Positions 2,662 to 64,000 of a DNA stretch of 64,000 bases are shown here, piece by piece (position 1 is the first letter of the stretch; each line of letters begins with the position of its first letter). The notes beneath the pieces are model-generated. The model saw only the letters and a list, made by a program, of their open reading frames with translations. It made no database searches and was not told the origin of the DNA. Origin of the DNA: Candidatus Mycalebacterium zealandia (GTDB lineage Bacteria; Desulfobacterota_D; UBA1144; Nemesobacterales; Mycalebacteriaceae); the NCBI GenBank assembly GCA_014075295.1, contig CP046180.1, positions 634,458-698,457 on the forward strand, written 5' to 3'. The translations under genes and the position numbers were made by a program.

Positions 2662-3559
2662 CCGTCCTGTTTTTCAGATGTTTTATAAGAGGAATCTCTT
2701 CTGTTATGTCGCTTATATTTTCAACCAGTTTCGCGCCTTTCTTGATAAGGGAGTTTGTTCCCCCGCTCATTTTTTCTCCGATTCTGCCCGGTACGGCAAA
2801 CACCTCTCTGCCATGTTCAAGTGCAAGATTTGCCGTTATCAAAGACCCGCTTTTGTTTGACGCCTGAATTACCACCGTGCCAAGTGAAAGCCCGCTTATG
2901 ACTGAGTTGCGTTGGGGAAAATTTGTTTTGTCGGGCTCGGTTCCAAGCGGGAAAGCAGAAATAACGGCGCCGTTTTTCGCGATGCTGTTGTAGAGTTCGT
3001 GATTTTCCGGCGGGTAGATGAAGTCAAGTCCGCTTCCGAGTACCGCGACCGTGCGCCCGCCCGCGTTTATAGCCGCTTTGTGAGCCGAGGAGTCTATGCC
3101 TCTTGCCATTCCGCTTACGACACAAACTCCAACCGCCGCAAGTTCCGAGGACAGGAATGTGGCTGAATCCGTTCCGTATTTTGACGGGGAACGCGAACCC
3201 ACTATCGCGACCGAGAGCAAGTCCCGCTTTTTTATCTCGCCGAAAACATAGAGAACCGCGGGCGCGGAATAAATTTGTTTAAGGTTTTCCGGGTAGCGGT
3301 CATCCGAAAGAGTAAGAATTTCAAAATCCCGCTTCCGGGCTTCAGAAATCTCTTTTTCCACCTTTTGCCAGTCGGAAAAGTTTTTGACAATTTTTTCAGT
3401 TTCCGGGCCGATTCCGCCAATTCGCGCAAGAGCGCCCGGCGTTCGCGCCTGTTTGAAAACGTTTTCCGCTGAGCCGCACCCCTCAACCAGACGGCTGATG
3501 AGAACATCGCCGAGCCCTTTGATAAAACTTAGAGCGATAAAACAAGATTTCTCGTCCAT
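2594..3559 (-). CDS. dprA: DNA processing protein DprA (main part)
   Basis: DprA loads RecA onto incoming single-stranded DNA during natural transformation. The 321-residue frame has the N-terminal helix-hairpin-helix region (IGGIGPETEKIVKNF) and the Rossmann-like core with VAIVGSRSPSKYG, VVSGMARGIDSSAHKAA, GSGLDFIYPPEN, FPQRNSVISGLS and GSLITANLALEHGREVFAVPG, all expected family landmarks. It then runs out of frame at an A7 tract and ends KKKTS, losing the winged-helix domain encoded in the next frame. The core alone may still bind DNA and RecA in related proteins. It is divergent from rmuC, with only about 30 bases between the two starts. Confidence 0.9.
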   Translation of the reverse strand: MDEKSCFIALSFIKGLGDVLISRLVEGCGSAENVFKQARTPGALARIGGIGPETEKIVKNFSDWQKVEKEISEARKRDFEILTLSDDRYPENLKQIYSAPAVLYVFGEIKKRDLLSVAIVGSRSPSKYGTDSATFLSSELAAVGVCVVSGMARGIDSSAHKAAINAGGRTVAVLGSGLDFIYPPENHELYNSIAKNGAVISAFPLGTEPDKTNFPQRNSVISGLSLGTVVIQASNKSGSLITANLALEHGREVFAVPGRIGEKMSGGTNSLIKKGAKLVENISDITEEIPLIKHLKNRTDDTSAQNSKKFASLSEEKKKTS

Positions 3560-5545: not shown

Positions 5546-7105
5546 TTATTTTCCCCACGCTCCGCCGCCCGGAGTTTCCACTCTTAGGATGTCTCCTTTA
5601 CGCGCCTTAAAACTTTGTTTGGGTTTGAGTTCGGTTTTCTTTCCGCCGCGAATCAGAAAATTCTTTCCGCTTTTGCCTTTTTCACCGTCCCCTATCGCCC
5701 ACGGGCGGTATTTTCTCCTTTCGGTGATGATTGAGACCGCGGCCTGCTCAAGAAATCTGTATTCCCTCACAATGCCGTTACCGCCGCAAAACTTTCCCTT
5801 TCCACCTGAGTTTTTCCGGATGGAATAAGACTCAATGCGCACGGGCAATTCTCTTTCAATCGCTTCTATCGGGGTGTTGAGCGTGTTTGTCATATGAGTC
5901 TGCACGGCGGACACACCATCCGCTCCCTGTCTTCCGCCCATGCCGCCCCCGATTGTTTCGTAATAAACAAATTCCCGCTCGTTGCGTCCACCACCGGAAC
6001 CGAAGGTTATGTTGTTCATCGTTCCGGCGCTCGCCGCCTGTATTTTCTCAGGAACCGCTTTGGCGAGCGCGCCGAAAATCGTGTCCGCGACCCTTTGCGA
6101 GGTCTCCACATTGCCCGCCGCTATGGCGCTCGGATAACGGGCTTTGAGCAAAGAGTTTTCACCTGTAACAATTTTGATTGCTCTCAATGGGCCCGAATTA
6201 AGCGGAATATCGTCCGGCGCGAGGCACTGAAAGGCGTATAGAACCGCCGAAGTGGTAACGCTGAAAGGCGCATTCACGCACCCTTTGACCGGCGGTGAAC
6301 TTCGCGACAAATCAACAACGGCTTCATTTCCGCTGATGTTCACCGTAGCCTTCACGGGGATGCTTTTTGTTCCCATGCCGTCATCGTCCAGAAAATCCGT
6401 GAATTTGTATTCACCGTCCGGAATCTTCATTATGGCTTCACGCATCATTTTTTCGGCATAATCAACAAGCCGCTCCGCCGAATTGCAAATGGTTTTGACC
6501 GAGTATTTTCGCGCCGTTTCACGCAACCGCTTCGCGCCCGTTTCAAGCGCCGCTATTTGAGCGTTCAGGTCTCCAAACCGCTCTTGGGGATTTCTCATTC
6601 CGGCAACGAGTTTTTTCAGGAGGCGTTTGTCCGGCTTCCCCTTTTTTTCTATACGGGTTGGCGCGATTATTATTCCCTCTTCGTCTATTGAGGTGGAAAG
6701 CGGCATTGAACCGGGTGTTTTGCCCCCGACATCTGTATGGTGGGCGCGCGCCGCTATATAAAAATACGGCTTGCCGCCGATAAAAACCGGAATAACGCAA
6801 GTGATGTCCGGAAGGTGTGTGCCGCCTTTGAACGGGTCATTCAGTATGAAAATGTCTCCATTTGATATTTCGCGCTCTTCAAGAACGGCGGCGACCGAAA
6901 AGGACATTGAGCCGAGATGAACCGGAATGTGCGCCGCCTGCGCTATCATTTCCCCTTTTGAGTTGAATATGGCGCATGAGTAGTCGCGCCGCTCTTTTAT
7001 GTTTGGTGAGAAAGACGAACGCATCAGGCGCGTGCCCATCTCTTCGGCTATTCCCGAAAGTATGTTGTTGAAAATGTCCAGTTCAAAGCGGTCAGGTGAC
7101 GGCAT
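5546..7105 (-). CDS. Hydantoinase B/oxoprolinase family protein (HyuB)
   Basis: 519 residues, the usual length of a lone HyuB subunit. Landmarks include SFSPNIKERRDYSCAIF, IPVHLGSMSFSV, ILNDPFKGGTHLPDIT, RAHHTDVGGKTPGSM and, near the end, RIESYSIRKNSGGKGKFCGG followed by VSIITERRKYRPWA. HyuB works with HyuA in ATP-dependent opening of hydantoins or 5-oxoproline, and related pairs form acetone carboxylase. No hyuA lies next to it here, so the substrate is open and its partner must be encoded elsewhere. The start is the ATG before SPDRFELDIF. A hairpin terminator separates it from glnA upstream. Confidence 0.85.
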   Translation of the reverse strand: MPSPDRFELDIFNNILSGIAEEMGTRLMRSSFSPNIKERRDYSCAIFNSKGEMIAQAAHIPVHLGSMSFSVAAVLEEREISNGDIFILNDPFKGGTHLPDITCVIPVFIGGKPYFYIAARAHHTDVGGKTPGSMPLSTSIDEEGIIIAPTRIEKKGKPDKRLLKKLVAGMRNPQERFGDLNAQIAALETGAKRLRETARKYSVKTICNSAERLVDYAEKMMREAIMKIPDGEYKFTDFLDDDGMGTKSIPVKATVNISGNEAVVDLSRSSPPVKGCVNAPFSVTTSAVLYAFQCLAPDDIPLNSGPLRAIKIVTGENSLLKARYPSAIAAGNVETSQRVADTIFGALAKAVPEKIQAASAGTMNNITFGSGGGRNEREFVYYETIGGGMGGRQGADGVSAVQTHMTNTLNTPIEAIERELPVRIESYSIRKNSGGKGKFCGGNGIVREYRFLEQAAVSIITERRKYRPWAIGDGEKGKSGKNFLIRGGKKTELKPKQSFKARKGDILRVETPGGGAWGK

Positions 7106-7120
7106 TTGCTTTATCCTACA

Positions 7121-7154
7121 AAAAAAAGCGCCGCTTTTACACGGCGCTTTTTTA
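7121..7154 (-). terminator. Intrinsic terminator after glnA
   Basis: A 7-bp GC-rich stem (agcgccg at 7127-7133 with cggcgct at 7142-7148) is flanked by A-run and T-run, so it can act in either direction. Its position just after the glnA stop makes it the glnA terminator. Confidence 0.8.
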
Positions 7155-7173
7155 TTCCCGTTTCATTTTTCAA

Positions 7174-8640
7174 TCAAACGTCAAAGTAGAGAATAAACTC
7201 CTGTGGAACGGGTCTCAGCCGAATGGGGTTGACCTCATTTTCCATCTTGTAGTCTATCCATGTTTTTATCAGGTCTTCATCAAACACTCCGCCCTTGAGA
7301 AGGAAGTCATGGTCTTTTTCAAGTGATTTCAACGCCTCTTCAAGAGATGCGGGAACCGAAGGAATGTTTTCCAACTCTTCGGGTCCGAGCGCGTAGATGT
7401 CTCTGTCCATCGGGTCGCCGGGTTTGATTTTGTTCTCAATTCCGTCAAGACCTGCCATCAGCATTGCTGAAAAAGTCAGATACCCGTTGCATGAAGGGTC
7501 GGGGAATCTGCACTCAATCCGCTTTGCCTTGGGGCTCGGAGAATACATCGGTATTCTCACCGCCGCGCTTCTGTTCCTTGCCGAGTAGGCGAGGTTGACC
7601 GGCGCCTCAAAGCCCGGAACAAGCCGTCTGTATGAATTCGTGGTTGAGTTGCTGAAAGCGCAAATCGCACGCGCGTGTTTGAGTATGCCGCCTATGTAAT
7701 GCATTGCGGTTTCACTCATTCCCGCATATCCGTTGCCCGCAAACAGAGGTTTGCCTTTCTTCCACAGCGACTGGTGAATGTGCATCCCGGAGCCGTTGTC
7801 ATCAAACAGCGGTTTGGGCATAAAGGTCACCGCTTTGCCGTGTCTGCGAGCGACATTGCGACAGATGTATTTATACCACATCATCTGGTCGCCCATTGTC
7901 ATAAGCGGTGCGAACTTCATGTCAATCTCCGCCTGTCCGCCTGTCGCGACCTCATGGTGGTGAGCCTCAACAACAATTCCCATTTCCTGCATAACGGAAA
8001 CCATTTCAGATCGGAGGTCGTGGTGGCTGTCAGCCGGAGGAGTGGGGAAGTACCCTTCTTTGTGCCTCAGTTTGTATCCGAGGTTGGGGAAATCATCACT
8101 TCCGGAATTCCAGATTCCCTCATCGGAATCTACAAAGTAGTAGCCGGAATTGGCTGTTTGGTCGTAACGGATGTCTTCAAGAATGAAAAACTCAAGTTCC
8201 GGACCGAAATGAGCCGTGTCCGCCATACCCGTGCTTTTCATATACGCTTCGGCTTTTCCCGCGATGTTTCTGGGGTCGCGTGAATAGGGCTCTTTTGTAA
8301 TTGGGTCAACTATGTTGCACAGAATAACAACTGTGGGTTTTTCCATAAAAGGGTCAAGCCGGACGGTCGCGGGGTCGGGCACGGTGAGCATGTCGCTCGC
8401 GTTGATTGTTTTCCAGCCCCTTATGCTTGAGCCGTCAAACCCCATTCCCTCTTCAAAAGCGGATGCGTCAAATTCGGACGCCGGAACGGTGAAATGCTGC
8501 CACATTCCGACAAAATCAAGAAATCGCAGATCTATGTATTCCGCCTTGCTGCTTTTGATGAACTTGACCGCTTTCGCTATCTCAGCCTTGTTGGTGTCAA
8601 TACGGCTCGGAGCCGCCTTTCTCGGTGCTTTTTTCGCCAC
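7174..8640 (-). CDS. glnA: Glutamine synthetase type I
   Basis: 488 residues. It makes glutamine from glutamate, ammonia and ATP. Visible landmarks: the D50-loop region [22 protein letters not shown] (metal/glutamate binding), [17 protein letters not shown], the nucleotide-binding [19 protein letters not shown], and the C-terminal loop [13 protein letters not shown], whose tyrosine is in the place adenylylated in GSI-beta enzymes. The N-terminus carries an extra basic Ala/Lys/Pro tail ([13 protein letters not shown]). It starts with GTG behind a strong AAAGGAGA site 7 bases upstream. A sigma70-like promoter is visible upstream and a terminator follows. Confidence 0.96.
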
Positions 8641-61300: not shown

Positions 61301-61954
61301 TTGCAAAAACTAAAGCTTCAGAAACCCGGCATTGTTGACTACCCCGGCGCGGTTGAAATCCAGAAGCAAATTCTTGAAAAACGCATAGCCGACAAAACCG
61401 GCGACACTTTAATTCTTCTCCAGCATCCGCCGACAATCACAACGGGCAGGCGCGGAAATCTTTCAAACCTTATGGCAAGCCCGGAATTTCTTGAAAAAAA
61501 AGGCGTTTATGTTGATGCGAGCGCGGGCAGAGGCGGAGACATAACTTTTCACGGTCCGGGGCAGATTGTGGGCTATCCGATTATCGGTATCAAGGGGCGC
61601 AAAGGCGGCGTTCCGGGTTATGTGCGCTCGCTTGAAGAGGTGATTATCCGCGCTCTCGGTGATTTTGACATTTCCGCCCGCCGTGTTGAAAAACTCACGG
61701 GCGTGTGGGTCAAGCGCAGTAAAATTGCCTCAATCGGCGTTGGCGTGCGCAGGTGGGTAACATGGCACGGCTTCGCGCTTAATGTGAATACAGACCTTTC
61801 GTGGTTTGACACAATTGTTCCCTGCGGAATTCCGCAAGTGAAAATGACCTCAATAAAAGATTGGACGAAAACCCCCGATGATATTGACACGGAATTGGTC
61901 TGCGATTCGCTTGTGAAGCATTTCGCGGATGTGTTTGGTTATGAGGGGTTTTGA
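61301..61954 (+). CDS. lipB: Octanoyl-(acyl-carrier-protein):protein transferase LipB
   Basis: 217 residues, starting TTG 6 bases after lpd stops. It loads octanoate on E2 lipoyl domains, directly serving the neighbouring complex. Active-site Lys is in SKIASIGVGVRRW, and the Cys in TIVPCGIPQVKMTS; RGGDITFHGPGQIVGYPI is the family signature. The last 15 codons lie in a 46-bp sequence that is repeated 741 bases downstream. The end reads ...GF then stop because the repeat is followed by TTTGA; the second copy would give ...G then stop. Confidence 0.94.
   Translation: MQKLKLQKPGIVDYPGAVEIQKQILEKRIADKTGDTLILLQHPPTITTGRRGNLSNLMASPEFLEKKGVYVDASAGRGGDITFHGPGQIVGYPIIGIKGRKGGVPGYVRSLEEVIIRALGDFDISARRVEKLTGVWVKRSKIASIGVGVRRWVTWHGFALNVNTDLSWFDTIVPCGIPQVKMTSIKDWTKTPDDIDTELVCDSLVKHFADVFGYEGF
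61904..61949. repeat. 46-bp direct repeat, copy 1 (end of lipB)
   Basis: Identical over 46 bases to 62645-62690. It contains the last codons of lipB (from the ADVFGYEG region) and starts at the GAT of the LVCDSL coding sequence. The copies bracket the MNT-HEPN module. Confidence 0.9.
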
Positions 61955-61986
61955 CAAACAAGACGGTGAAGGAAAAGGCGTTTCTA

Positions 61987-61995
61987 TGCTATAAT
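61987..61995 (+). promoter_or_regulatory. Extended -10 promoter of the MNT-HEPN module
   Basis: TGCTATAAT (61987-61995) fits an extended -10 (TGnTATAAT), ending 8 bases before the ATG. Transcription would start at or next to the ATG, so the module carries its own promoter. Confidence 0.5.
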
Positions 61996-62003
61996 CAGGG
62001 GCG

Positions 62004-62285
62004 ATGGAAGAAACACTGCAAGAACTGAAGAACTGGAAAGCGGAAAACGCAAACAAATACGGCATTTTAGAAATGGGCGTTTTTGGTTCTGTTGCGAGAG
62101 GCGAAGCAACACCTGAAAGCGATGTTGATGTTGTAATTAAACTCAAACAGCCGAACCTTTATGTGATGATTCGCATAGAGAGAGAACTTGGGGAATATCT
62201 GAAGAAGCCGGTGGATGTCGTCAGCAGAAATGTGGACAATCTTTACCTGAAAAGACGAATAGAGAGGGATATGGTCGTTGTCTGA
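62004..62285 (+). CDS. MNT-family minimal nucleotidyltransferase (antitoxin)
   Basis: 93 residues. The nucleotidyltransferase signature GS-x10-D-x-D is present: GVFGSVARGEATPESDVDVV, Gly28-Ser29 with Asp40 and Asp42. MNT proteins act as antitoxins of HEPN RNases, in some cases by adding AMP to the HEPN tyrosine or active-site region. It overlaps the HEPN gene by 8 bases. Composition is more AT-rich than lipB, and the pair lies between direct repeats, which suggests transfer. Confidence 0.9.
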   Translation: MEETLQELKNWKAENANKYGILEMGVFGSVARGEATPESDVDVVIKLKQPNLYVMIRIERELGEYLKKPVDVVSRNVDNLYLKRRIERDMVVV

Positions 62286-62646
62286 CAAAGAGTTATTGAA
62301 AGAAATGCTGATACAGGTTTCCGGCTCTGCGGAAAAAATCATAGGCTGGTTTCAAGACATAAAAAGTGCTGAGGATTTTTCGTCCCCTGAAGGGCAAAAA
62401 ACTTTGGACGCAATCTGTATGAACCTTATTGCTATGGGTGAGTCAATCAAAAAAATTGACGAAAAAATGGATGGCAGCACCCTTTCCGACCACGGAGAAG
62501 TGCCTTGGACGGACATGATAAGAACAAGGGATTTCTTCGCCCATCACTATTTCAGAATAGAAAAAGAAGAAGTTTTTGACATCTGTGAGAATGATATTCC
62601 GAAACTACGCGAAACCTTGAAGAAGATGCTGAAAGATCTTGGGTGA
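62278..62646 (+). CDS. HEPN-domain toxin (DUF86/HepT-like)
   Basis: 122 residues. The HEPN helical domain has the RNase motif R-x4-H in IRTRDFFAHHYFRIE (Arg84 and His89). HepT-like proteins cut RNA and are neutralised by the MNT partner encoded just upstream. Starts TTG, overlapping the MNT gene, so translation is coupled. The C-terminal part (IENDIPKLRETLKKML-like segment NDIPKLRETLKKMLKDLG) is the usual last helix. A GTG-less but coupled start, plus the flanking repeats, support a recently inserted toxin-antitoxin unit. Confidence 0.9.
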   Translation: MSDKELLKEMLIQVSGSAEKIIGWFQDIKSAEDFSSPEGQKTLDAICMNLIAMGESIKKIDEKMDGSTLSDHGEVPWTDMIRTRDFFAHHYFRIEKEEVFDICENDIPKLRETLKKMLKDLG

Positions 62647-62690
62647 TTCGCTTGTGAAGCATTTCGCGGATGTGTTTGGTTATGAGGGGT
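62645..62690. repeat. 46-bp direct repeat, copy 2 (after HEPN gene)
   Basis: Identical to 61904-61949 over 46 bases, including the end-of-lipB coding sequence, here ending in GGGTGA so it would read as a shorter end of LipB. It lies one base before the end of the HEPN gene and 10 bases from the ankyrin gene stop. Confidence 0.9.
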
Positions 62691-62700
62691 GAAAACCGAA

Positions 62701-63615
62701 CTAAAATAATTCTCTGATTTTGTCAAAGAAACCTTTGGGCTTAGTGGGATTACCGTATCGCAATTCATTCAGTCTCCAATACGCTTCGGTATTCTTTAAC
62801 GCTTCATTTTCTTTAGCATAATCAAATGCTGTTTTTCCTTCATCGTTCACAAGTCGCGGACTTGCCCCGTTTTCAAGTAATGCATTAATAATTTCCGAAT
62901 TGGTATTTCCGTATGCTGCTGCCATCAGAGCCGTAGTCCCGTCTTCACCTCTGGCGTGAACATCCGCTCCGTCTCTGACAAGAGTGGTAATAATTTCCGG
63001 ATTGGTGTTGAACATTGCCGCAAACATCAGAGCCGTAGTCCCGCCTTCACCTCTTGCGTTAACATCCGCTCCATTTCTGACGAGAGAGGTAATGATTTTC
63101 GGATTGGTGGTGGAACGGGCCGCAAACATCAGAGCCGTAGTCCCGCCTTCAATTCTTGCGTTAACATCCGCTCCATTTCTGACGAGAGAGGTAATGATTT
63201 TCGGATTGGTATTGTTCTCTGCTGCTGCCATCAGAGCCGTATAGCCATCTTTAATTCTTGCGTTAACATCCGCTCCTTTTTTAACAAGAGTGGTAATGAT
63301 TTCCGGGTTGGTGTTGTTATATGCCGCACACATCAGAGCCGTAACGCCGTTTTCATCTCTTGCGTGAACATCCGCTCCATTTCTGACGAGAGAGATAATG
63401 ATTTTCGGATTTGTGCTGAACTGTGCCGCAAACATCAGAGCCGTCCAGCCGTGTTCATTTCTTGCATTAACATCCGCTCCGTTTCTGATTTCTCTCTCAA
63501 CATCTTCAACTGTTGCAGTTGCCATAAACTTCTGATTAAGCAAATTATTTGCGTGCGACAACGCCGGAAATATCAGGCAGAGAACCAAAGCGAGAAATGT
63601 AATTTTTCTTTTCAT
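62701..63615 (-). CDS. Secreted ankyrin-repeat protein
   Basis: 304 residues from ATG 63615, chosen because it begins a signal peptide (KRKITFLALVLCLIFPALSHA, cut near Ala22-Asn23); an upstream in-frame start would extend into the next gene. Six full 34-residue ankyrin repeats occupy about residues 46-249, each of form GADVNARxExGxTALMxAAxx followed by NPxIIxxLVRx, then a degenerate cap and a tail (YWRLNELRYGNPTKP...). Such exported ankyrin proteins bind other proteins, sometimes of a host. The partner here is unknown. Confidence 0.85.
   Translation of the reverse strand: MKRKITFLALVLCLIFPALSHANNLLNQKFMATATVEDVEREIRNGADVNARNEHGWTALMFAAQFSTNPKIIISLVRNGADVHARDENGVTALMCAAYNNTNPEIITTLVKKGADVNARIKDGYTALMAAAENNTNPKIITSLVRNGADVNARIEGGTTALMFAARSTTNPKIITSLVRNGADVNARGEGGTTALMFAAMFNTNPEIITTLVRDGADVHARGEDGTTALMAAAYGNTNSEIINALLENGASPRLVNDEGKTAFDYAKENEALKNTEAYWRLNELRYGNPTKPKGFFDKIRELF
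62869..63480 (-). repeat. Tandem 102-bp ankyrin repeats
   Basis: The string atcagagccgta recurs with an exact 102-base period around 62.92, 63.02, 63.12, 63.22, 63.33 and 63.43 kb, equal to 34 codons. Neighbouring copies share long identical blocks, such as the gcgttaacatccgctcc part. The strict period and high identity suggest recent duplication. Confidence 0.85.
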
Positions 63616-63622
63616 ATAGAAC

Positions 63623-64000
63623 CTACTTCTTCGTCCAATAAACAAGAGCGGCGCCGACAACAATGAGGAAAATTCCCGCGAGGCGCATTGATGTAACTCT
63701 TTCGCCGAGAATTGCCCAGGCGTAAAGCGCGGAGAAAAGCGGAGCGGTTGCCGCGAGCGGAATAACATAAGACGCTTCTCCGTCTCTCAGCGCGGAGAAG
63801 AAAAGGAAAAGCCCGACAATGCCTCCCAGAAGCCCGGCGGTGATAATAAGCAACAGCGTTTTTCCGCTGATTTGAAAAATCTCCGCTCCTTTGCCGGTCG
63901 CGATTGTAAAAACCGTTATCACGGCGGATATGAACAGCAGCCGTATCGTCATAACAACGGTTGTGGATGTGTCTCTGAGGCTCAATTTCTCAAAAATCGG
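63623..64000 (-). CDS. EamA-family transporter, 5' end outside window
   Basis: The frame is open to the window edge: codons before the first TTG start (63985) read PIFEK, so the N-terminus lies beyond base 64000. The visible 126 residues cover one EamA half: LRDTSTTVVMTIRLLFISAV, GLLGGIVGLFLFFSALRDGE and YVIPLAATAPLFSALYAWAILGE. Such small transporters move metabolites; substrate unknown. The stop lies 8 bases upstream of the ankyrin gene start. Confidence 0.85.
   Translation of the reverse strand, partial: PIFEKLSLRDTSTTVVMTIRLLFISAVITVFTIATGKGAEIFQISGKTLLLIITAGLLGGIVGLFLFFSALRDGEASYVIPLAATAPLFSALYAWAILGERVTSMRLAGIFLIVVGAALVYWTKK

Follow-up and report, generated by a model that had tools for sequence, protein, structure and literature searches.

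An MNT-HEPN toxin-antitoxin module at the 3' end of lipB, inserted between 46-bp copies of its target, and a similar footprint around other toxin-antitoxin modules

The window, i.e. the whole stretch of 64,000 nucleotides analysed from Candidatus Mycalebacterium zealandia, carries the octanoyltransferase gene lipB, preceded by lpd and followed by a two-gene MNT-HEPN operon placed between two direct repeats. The features of this locus are as follows.

61301-61954, forward strand: lipB, octanoyltransferase (TIGR00214, E 9e-52; open reading frame)
61904-61949, forward strand: repeat copy 1, joined to lipB and coding for the lipB C-terminus ...SLVKHFADVFGYEG (46/46 identity to copy 2)
61950-62644, forward strand: insert of 695 bp, nearly all MNT-HEPN operon, sitting between the repeats and absent in the congener G001
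61987-61995, forward strand: putative extended -10 promoter element TGCTATAAT, from a reading of the sequence alone
62004-62285, forward strand: MNT nucleotidyltransferase, predicted antitoxin, with an intact GSX10DXD motif (PF01909, E 2.5e-12)
62278-62646, forward strand: HEPN (HepT-like) protein, predicted RNase toxin, with an intact RX4HXY motif (PF01934, E 1.6e-18)
62645-62690, forward strand: repeat copy 2, which together with 62691-62692 (GA) preserves the ancestral lipB end (identity to copy 1; stop codon position as in G001)
62701-63768, reverse strand: convergent ankyrin-repeat gene (longest open reading frame), its stop 8 bp past the ancestral lipB stop

The repeat copies are identical at all 46 positions and 741 bp apart from start to start; in this, as in the open reading frames, the initial annotation was accurate. 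Outside the ankyrin-repeat gene, no other direct repeat longer than 22 nt is found in the 64 kb, and the chance expectation of a repeated 46-mer in such a length is about 1e-19 by a hand estimate. Both copies belong to one contig of 1,162,547 bp, and that genome holds no further copy. The repeat had been described as the last 46 bases of the lipB coding sequence. It does lie at the lipB end but, because the coding sequence ends at 61954, the repeat, ending at 61949, falls 5 bases short of the last base of the current stop codon. This stop (TGA, 61952-61954) is located in the insert, and the last codon with the stop (TTT TGA) is mostly insert-derived. At the other junction, the HEPN stop (TGA, 62644-62646) is completed by GA, the first two bases of copy 2.

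The insert contains only the MNT and HEPN genes, which overlap, and thus no integrase gene, as already noticed. Its G+C content is 0.42 versus 0.50 for the window, the 37th lowest among 634 windows of equal size, and Rfam gives no match around the insertion site. The pair displays the type VII layout, namely two overlapping genes in one operon, MNT carrying GSX10DXD and HEPN carrying RX4HXY (motifs as defined in PMC11586414), and passes the Pfam cut-offs. Its NCBIfam scores, 46.7 bits for MntA (NF047752) and 23.9 bits for HepT (NF047751), are both under the cut-off of 60, so it is named only type VII-like. The module is an MNT-HEPN toxin-antitoxin pair of this type, in which the toxin and antitoxin roles are predicted. 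PADLOC matches the MNT protein to the candidate PDC-S09; no close relative of the HEPN protein was found among viral contigs, and no solved structure matches it by sequence. The convergent neighbour is built of near-identical 102-bp units sharing up to 57 identical bases, which suggests a recent unit expansion.

The empty lipB end that the initial annotation proposed seeking among relatives is found in G001, the only congener compared, whose LipB is 78% identical at the protein level. There, lipB ends with ...FGYGG* and is directly followed by convergent genes, with no module, and the 20 kb around lipB contain a single copy of the repeat sequence (82% identical). The position of the ankyrin-repeat gene is occupied in G001 by a different gene, DUF805-like by eye. 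In the window, the two copies complete lipB slightly differently, as had been proposed: the distal copy reads ...FGYEG* and stops at the codon used in G001, whereas the gene-attached copy reads ...FGYEGF* with a stop provided by the insert. The distal copy is therefore the ancestral end and remains linked to native DNA; the copy attached to lipB received a new end from the insert. The ancestral site had almost no free space, as the stop of the convergent ankyrin-repeat gene lies only 8 bp beyond. In other Dadabacteria, 29 lipB loci were fetched, 28 of them with downstream sequence long enough to test, and a duplicated lipB end occurs in 0/28. Neither G001 nor these Dadabacteria loci include a relative with the module after lipB. 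MNT-HEPN pairs are found elsewhere in the genus (two HEPN matches in G001), none of them at lipB, and the situation that would have spoken against an insertion, a relative with the module at lipB and other flanks, did not arise. The earlier reading, in which an insertion duplicated the end of its target gene and restored it, is thus borne out: a bare module was inserted with duplication of the target end, the repeat being single-copy at the empty site and the insert being devoid of transposase and integrase, as in an 'insertion with long target duplication'.

The same footprint was surveyed at loci from 59 genomes of different families. The score was that of the best local alignment (+2/-3) found, within 1.2 kb, between the sequences on either side of each gene, with a cut-off of 50, corresponding to about 25 perfect bases. 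Flanking direct repeats were detected at 20/58 HEPN loci, including the three (L199, L218, and L237) that supplied the lead, as well as at 17/64 HicA loci (10/29 and 7/35) and 14/61 PIN/VapC loci (4/26 and 10/35), several of which may share one genome, making the counts partly dependent. About a quarter of the sampled toxin-antitoxin modules thus carry the footprint. The lead itself came from MNT-HEPN modules beyond which the 3' end of a neighbour recurs (lon, an hsdR-like gene, and a small gene), together with the repeated glycosyltransferase start of G060 described below. Control loci of the same genomes gave 0/30 for UspA and 0/30 for GNAT, with best scores of 35 and 31, and the first 113 toxin loci differ from the 60 control loci with a Fisher p of 6.5e-8. 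Random midpoints in the same regions were positive in 22/452 cases, several of them reading as internal protein repeats or low-complexity DNA and one being L224, described below.

Tandem paralogous modules, as at L266, and repeats that recur more than twice in the DNA sampled (for example L203, L209, L229, L244, L251, and L461) are part of the raw counts but are not relied on as target duplications. Most flanking repeats occur just twice in that DNA, and some are dispersed repeats that were set aside. At L266 (G060:C15), a single contig has four HicA matches in about 1.8 kb, and the modules, which are either tandem paralogs or serial insertions, are separated by imperfect repeats. Among Dadabacteria, the footprint is present at only 2/24 testable HEPN loci (the window and L144), so that the general claim rests on the broad sample. 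Plasmid-borne MNT-HEPN pairs of Sulfurimonas, Parabacteroides, Enterobacter, and Picosynechococcus have flanking repeats in 0/4 cases. In another Dadabacteria relative (L123, G038:C97, 59-900), a CRISPR-like array with a 36-bp repeat and a period of about 73 bp is located beside an MNT-HEPN pair. The footprint is not exclusive to toxin-antitoxin modules, since at L224 (G058:C28, 8823-10370) a non-toxin gene, a mannosylglycerate synthase, stands beside a Memo/AMMECR1 gene whose 118-bp 3' end is repeated on the far side.

The flanking repeats mostly measure 45-230 bp and often correspond to the 3' end of a neighbouring gene, which they overlap in at least 16 cases. According to Pfam, the target genes include gyrB, ffh, lon, hsdR, and a helicase with a NO VEIN domain. 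In 7/16 cases, the gene-attached edge of the repeat is within 5 nt of the stop codon, a bias that selection to keep the gene intact may have produced. The gyrB repeat reaches as far as the first T of the stop, and a new stop is provided by the insert, as in lipB. The HEPN inserts extend little beyond the operon in 11/20 cases (697-832 bp), the others reaching up to 1.7 kb. The lipB insert is one clean and apparently recent example of this wider pattern.

An empty site within a genus is also observed in the cyanobacterium-like genus of G104. In this genome, the last 115 bp of a 904-aa gene are repeated (97%) beyond a convergent MNT-HEPN pair, and at the end of that gene the congeners G118 and G120 lack the module and have a single copy. 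Here too, the distal copy (...RERGL) matches the end found in the relatives, and the attached copy is altered (...RERGM*). In a further congener, G121 (L385 and L395), the 904-aa gene is split close to its 3' end by a stretch of about 1.5 kb containing a 454-aa ORF, transposase-like and of the TnpB/OrfB type by eye; the same gene end was thus struck more than once in the genus.

Some loci display other arrangements. At L218 (G060:C27:5700-17700, about 5621-7430), the start of a glycosyltransferase gene (MFQNKKIAVVIPA...) occurs in four copies, between which lie three different toxin-antitoxin modules, namely MNT-HEPN, HicBA, and RelBE-like, the latter two named from their sequences. The arrangement looks as if the modules had been inserted successively, the target being duplicated anew each time. 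At L454 (G058:C36), a PIN-toxin module lies in the 3' part of ffh (SRP54) within a 116-bp duplication (2046-2161 and 3192-3307, 98%), the attached ffh copy having a replaced C-terminus and the other copy lying beyond the module. At L279 (G063:C200), a HicBA-like module is placed between 46-bp repeats (1137-1182 and 1769-1814) that resemble a tRNA 3' end by eye, and ARAGORN calls no tRNA in the locus.

The lipB locus is probably explained by the integrase-independent insertion of a free-standing MNT-HEPN module of about 0.7 kb at the 3' end of the gene, which left a 46-bp target duplication, the joining and addiction steps being inferred. Homologous or illegitimate recombination with the incoming DNA, for which no donor sequence was found, would join one end at the stop codon or right next to it. 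The other end would join illegitimately a few tens of bp upstream, thereby duplicating the gene end. The duplication could be made during the insertion, by a staggered break or a template switch, or the incoming DNA could have brought a homologous gene end. The insertion would be tolerated because it leaves lipB and its convergent neighbour whole at a place devoid of free intergenic DNA. Direct repeats of this kind are prone to precise deletion, for which an addiction module would make the cell pay. The module may persist because recombination between the repeats would delete it and expose the cell to the toxin, a point on which the UspA and GNAT controls do not separate addiction from recent arrival.

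The second of these routes, when taken as the general one, is a rival explanation that overlaps the preferred one and differs from it in the origin of the second copy. According to it, a circle or a linear fragment holding a gene 3' end and the toxin-antitoxin genes would arrive from a relative and recombine by homology in the resident gene end, through a single crossover or homology-facilitated illegitimate recombination, a process described experimentally (PMC3240628). The two copies would then be donor and recipient alleles. At L232 and L246, most differences between the copies fall at synonymous sites (p 0.0005 and 0.004). A plain duplication would not lead one to expect this, and the carried gene end is favoured in at least these two cases. 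When 13 cases are pooled, 36 synonymous codons are found versus 19 expected, although purifying selection on the copy joined to the gene may account for part of this excess. The edges close to stop codons in 7/16 cases also agree with a carried end. By contrast, the lipB copies are identical and hence devoid of a donor signal, the search for relatives carrying the module after lipB was negative in G001 and the Dadabacteria loci, and the distal copy at lon appears decayed, with an in-frame stop. As the general account, a carried gene end is thus rather unlikely.

Integrative elements located at the 3' ends of tRNA, tmRNA, or protein genes duplicate and restore the end of their target. The initial annotation alluded to this strategy, and the insert could be the remnant of such an element or a cassette that a site-specific integrase moved in trans, and the repeats would then be attL and attR. 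The size and position of the repeats and the restored gene end do resemble att cores, and the tRNA-like 46-bp repeat of L279 would fit, even though ARAGORN found no tRNA there. However, the lipB insert has no recombinase gene, and a search of the genome (G000) for tyrosine recombinases returned just two, both Xer-sized. Unlike an att core, the repeats vary freely in length (about 45-230 bp) and in target, the targets being many and unrelated, and no core is common to the loci. Besides, the inserts are repeatedly trimmed nearly to the operon, which the decay of larger elements would not do. The comparison with tRNA- and tmRNA-targeted elements is thus not upheld, and an integrase origin is highly improbable. 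As the insert carries no recombinase, the genome has only the two Xer-sized enzymes, and the repeats share neither length nor sequence, no dedicated recombinase would be involved. Finally, an assembly artefact is extremely unlikely, since each copy has unique flanks on both sides in a single-contig genome of 1.16 Mb, the two copies have different stop contexts, and the same architecture is seen in many other genome assemblies.

The preferred reading, an insertion of the bare module with duplication of the target, seems to have a closer precedent in restriction-modification systems than in the tRNA/tmRNA integrase elements. Restriction-modification systems can leave long, variable target duplications (Nobusato et al. 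2000, Gene 259:99; Furuta et al. 2010, NAR 38:2428; as related in PMC3874152 and PMC3031569). In those accounts, the insertion would likewise concern a bare two-gene module of the addiction type, linked to no known mobile element and surrounded by long variable direct repeats, whereas here the toxin is a predicted RNase that would not cut DNA, the repeats are mostly of 45-230 bp, and many families are concerned. In a published restriction-modification experiment, the enrichment of integrations was due mainly to counter-selection of the cells that lacked them (PMC3031569).

Two other cases involve toxin-antitoxin pairs. In Microcystis aeruginosa PCC 7806, a ParE/ParD-like pair (1065-1067) follows MaOC1 and lies, as at lipB, past the stop codon of a gene and between direct repeats, identical over 152 bp (PMC7935541). 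According to the accessible part of that paper, its repeats differ in starting 14 bp after the stop and in containing 16-bp inverted repeats, and they include no duplicated gene end and are not interpreted as a target duplication. Recent MNT-HEPN insertions were reported by Makarova et al. in Thermus thermophilus and Deinococcus (PMC2701414). These modules are of the same type and vary in presence between close relatives at syntenic sites, but no direct repeats are mentioned in PMC2701414. One of them lies in the lysine operon of Thermus thermophilus HB8 and is missing from HB27. In the partly covered literature, a search for toxin-antitoxin modules with target duplication led only to the restriction-modification work and this one ParE/ParD case, and an earlier description is possible.

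Solitary chromosomal toxin-antitoxin modules are called mobile, and most of them have no transposase or integrase. Their mode of movement is a long-standing gap, for which the footprint hints at a transposase-free movement. It may tentatively be proposed that chromosomal toxin-antitoxin modules are generally minimal mobile units, spreading without a recombinase into gene ends with long target duplication, and that the footprint is kept because addiction blocks the precise deletion that erases it for ordinary genes. This leads to the prediction that precise excision between the repeats would be recoverable with a dead toxin and counter-selected with an active one. The footprint, a duplicated gene end around a toxin-antitoxin operon, can be scanned for and makes insertion sites, empty sites, and age measurable. 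Being enriched at HEPN, HicA, and VapC, it links toxin-antitoxin modules to the target-duplicating insertion of restriction-modification systems, which form the second major group of addiction modules, and this wider pattern merits a genome-scale study.
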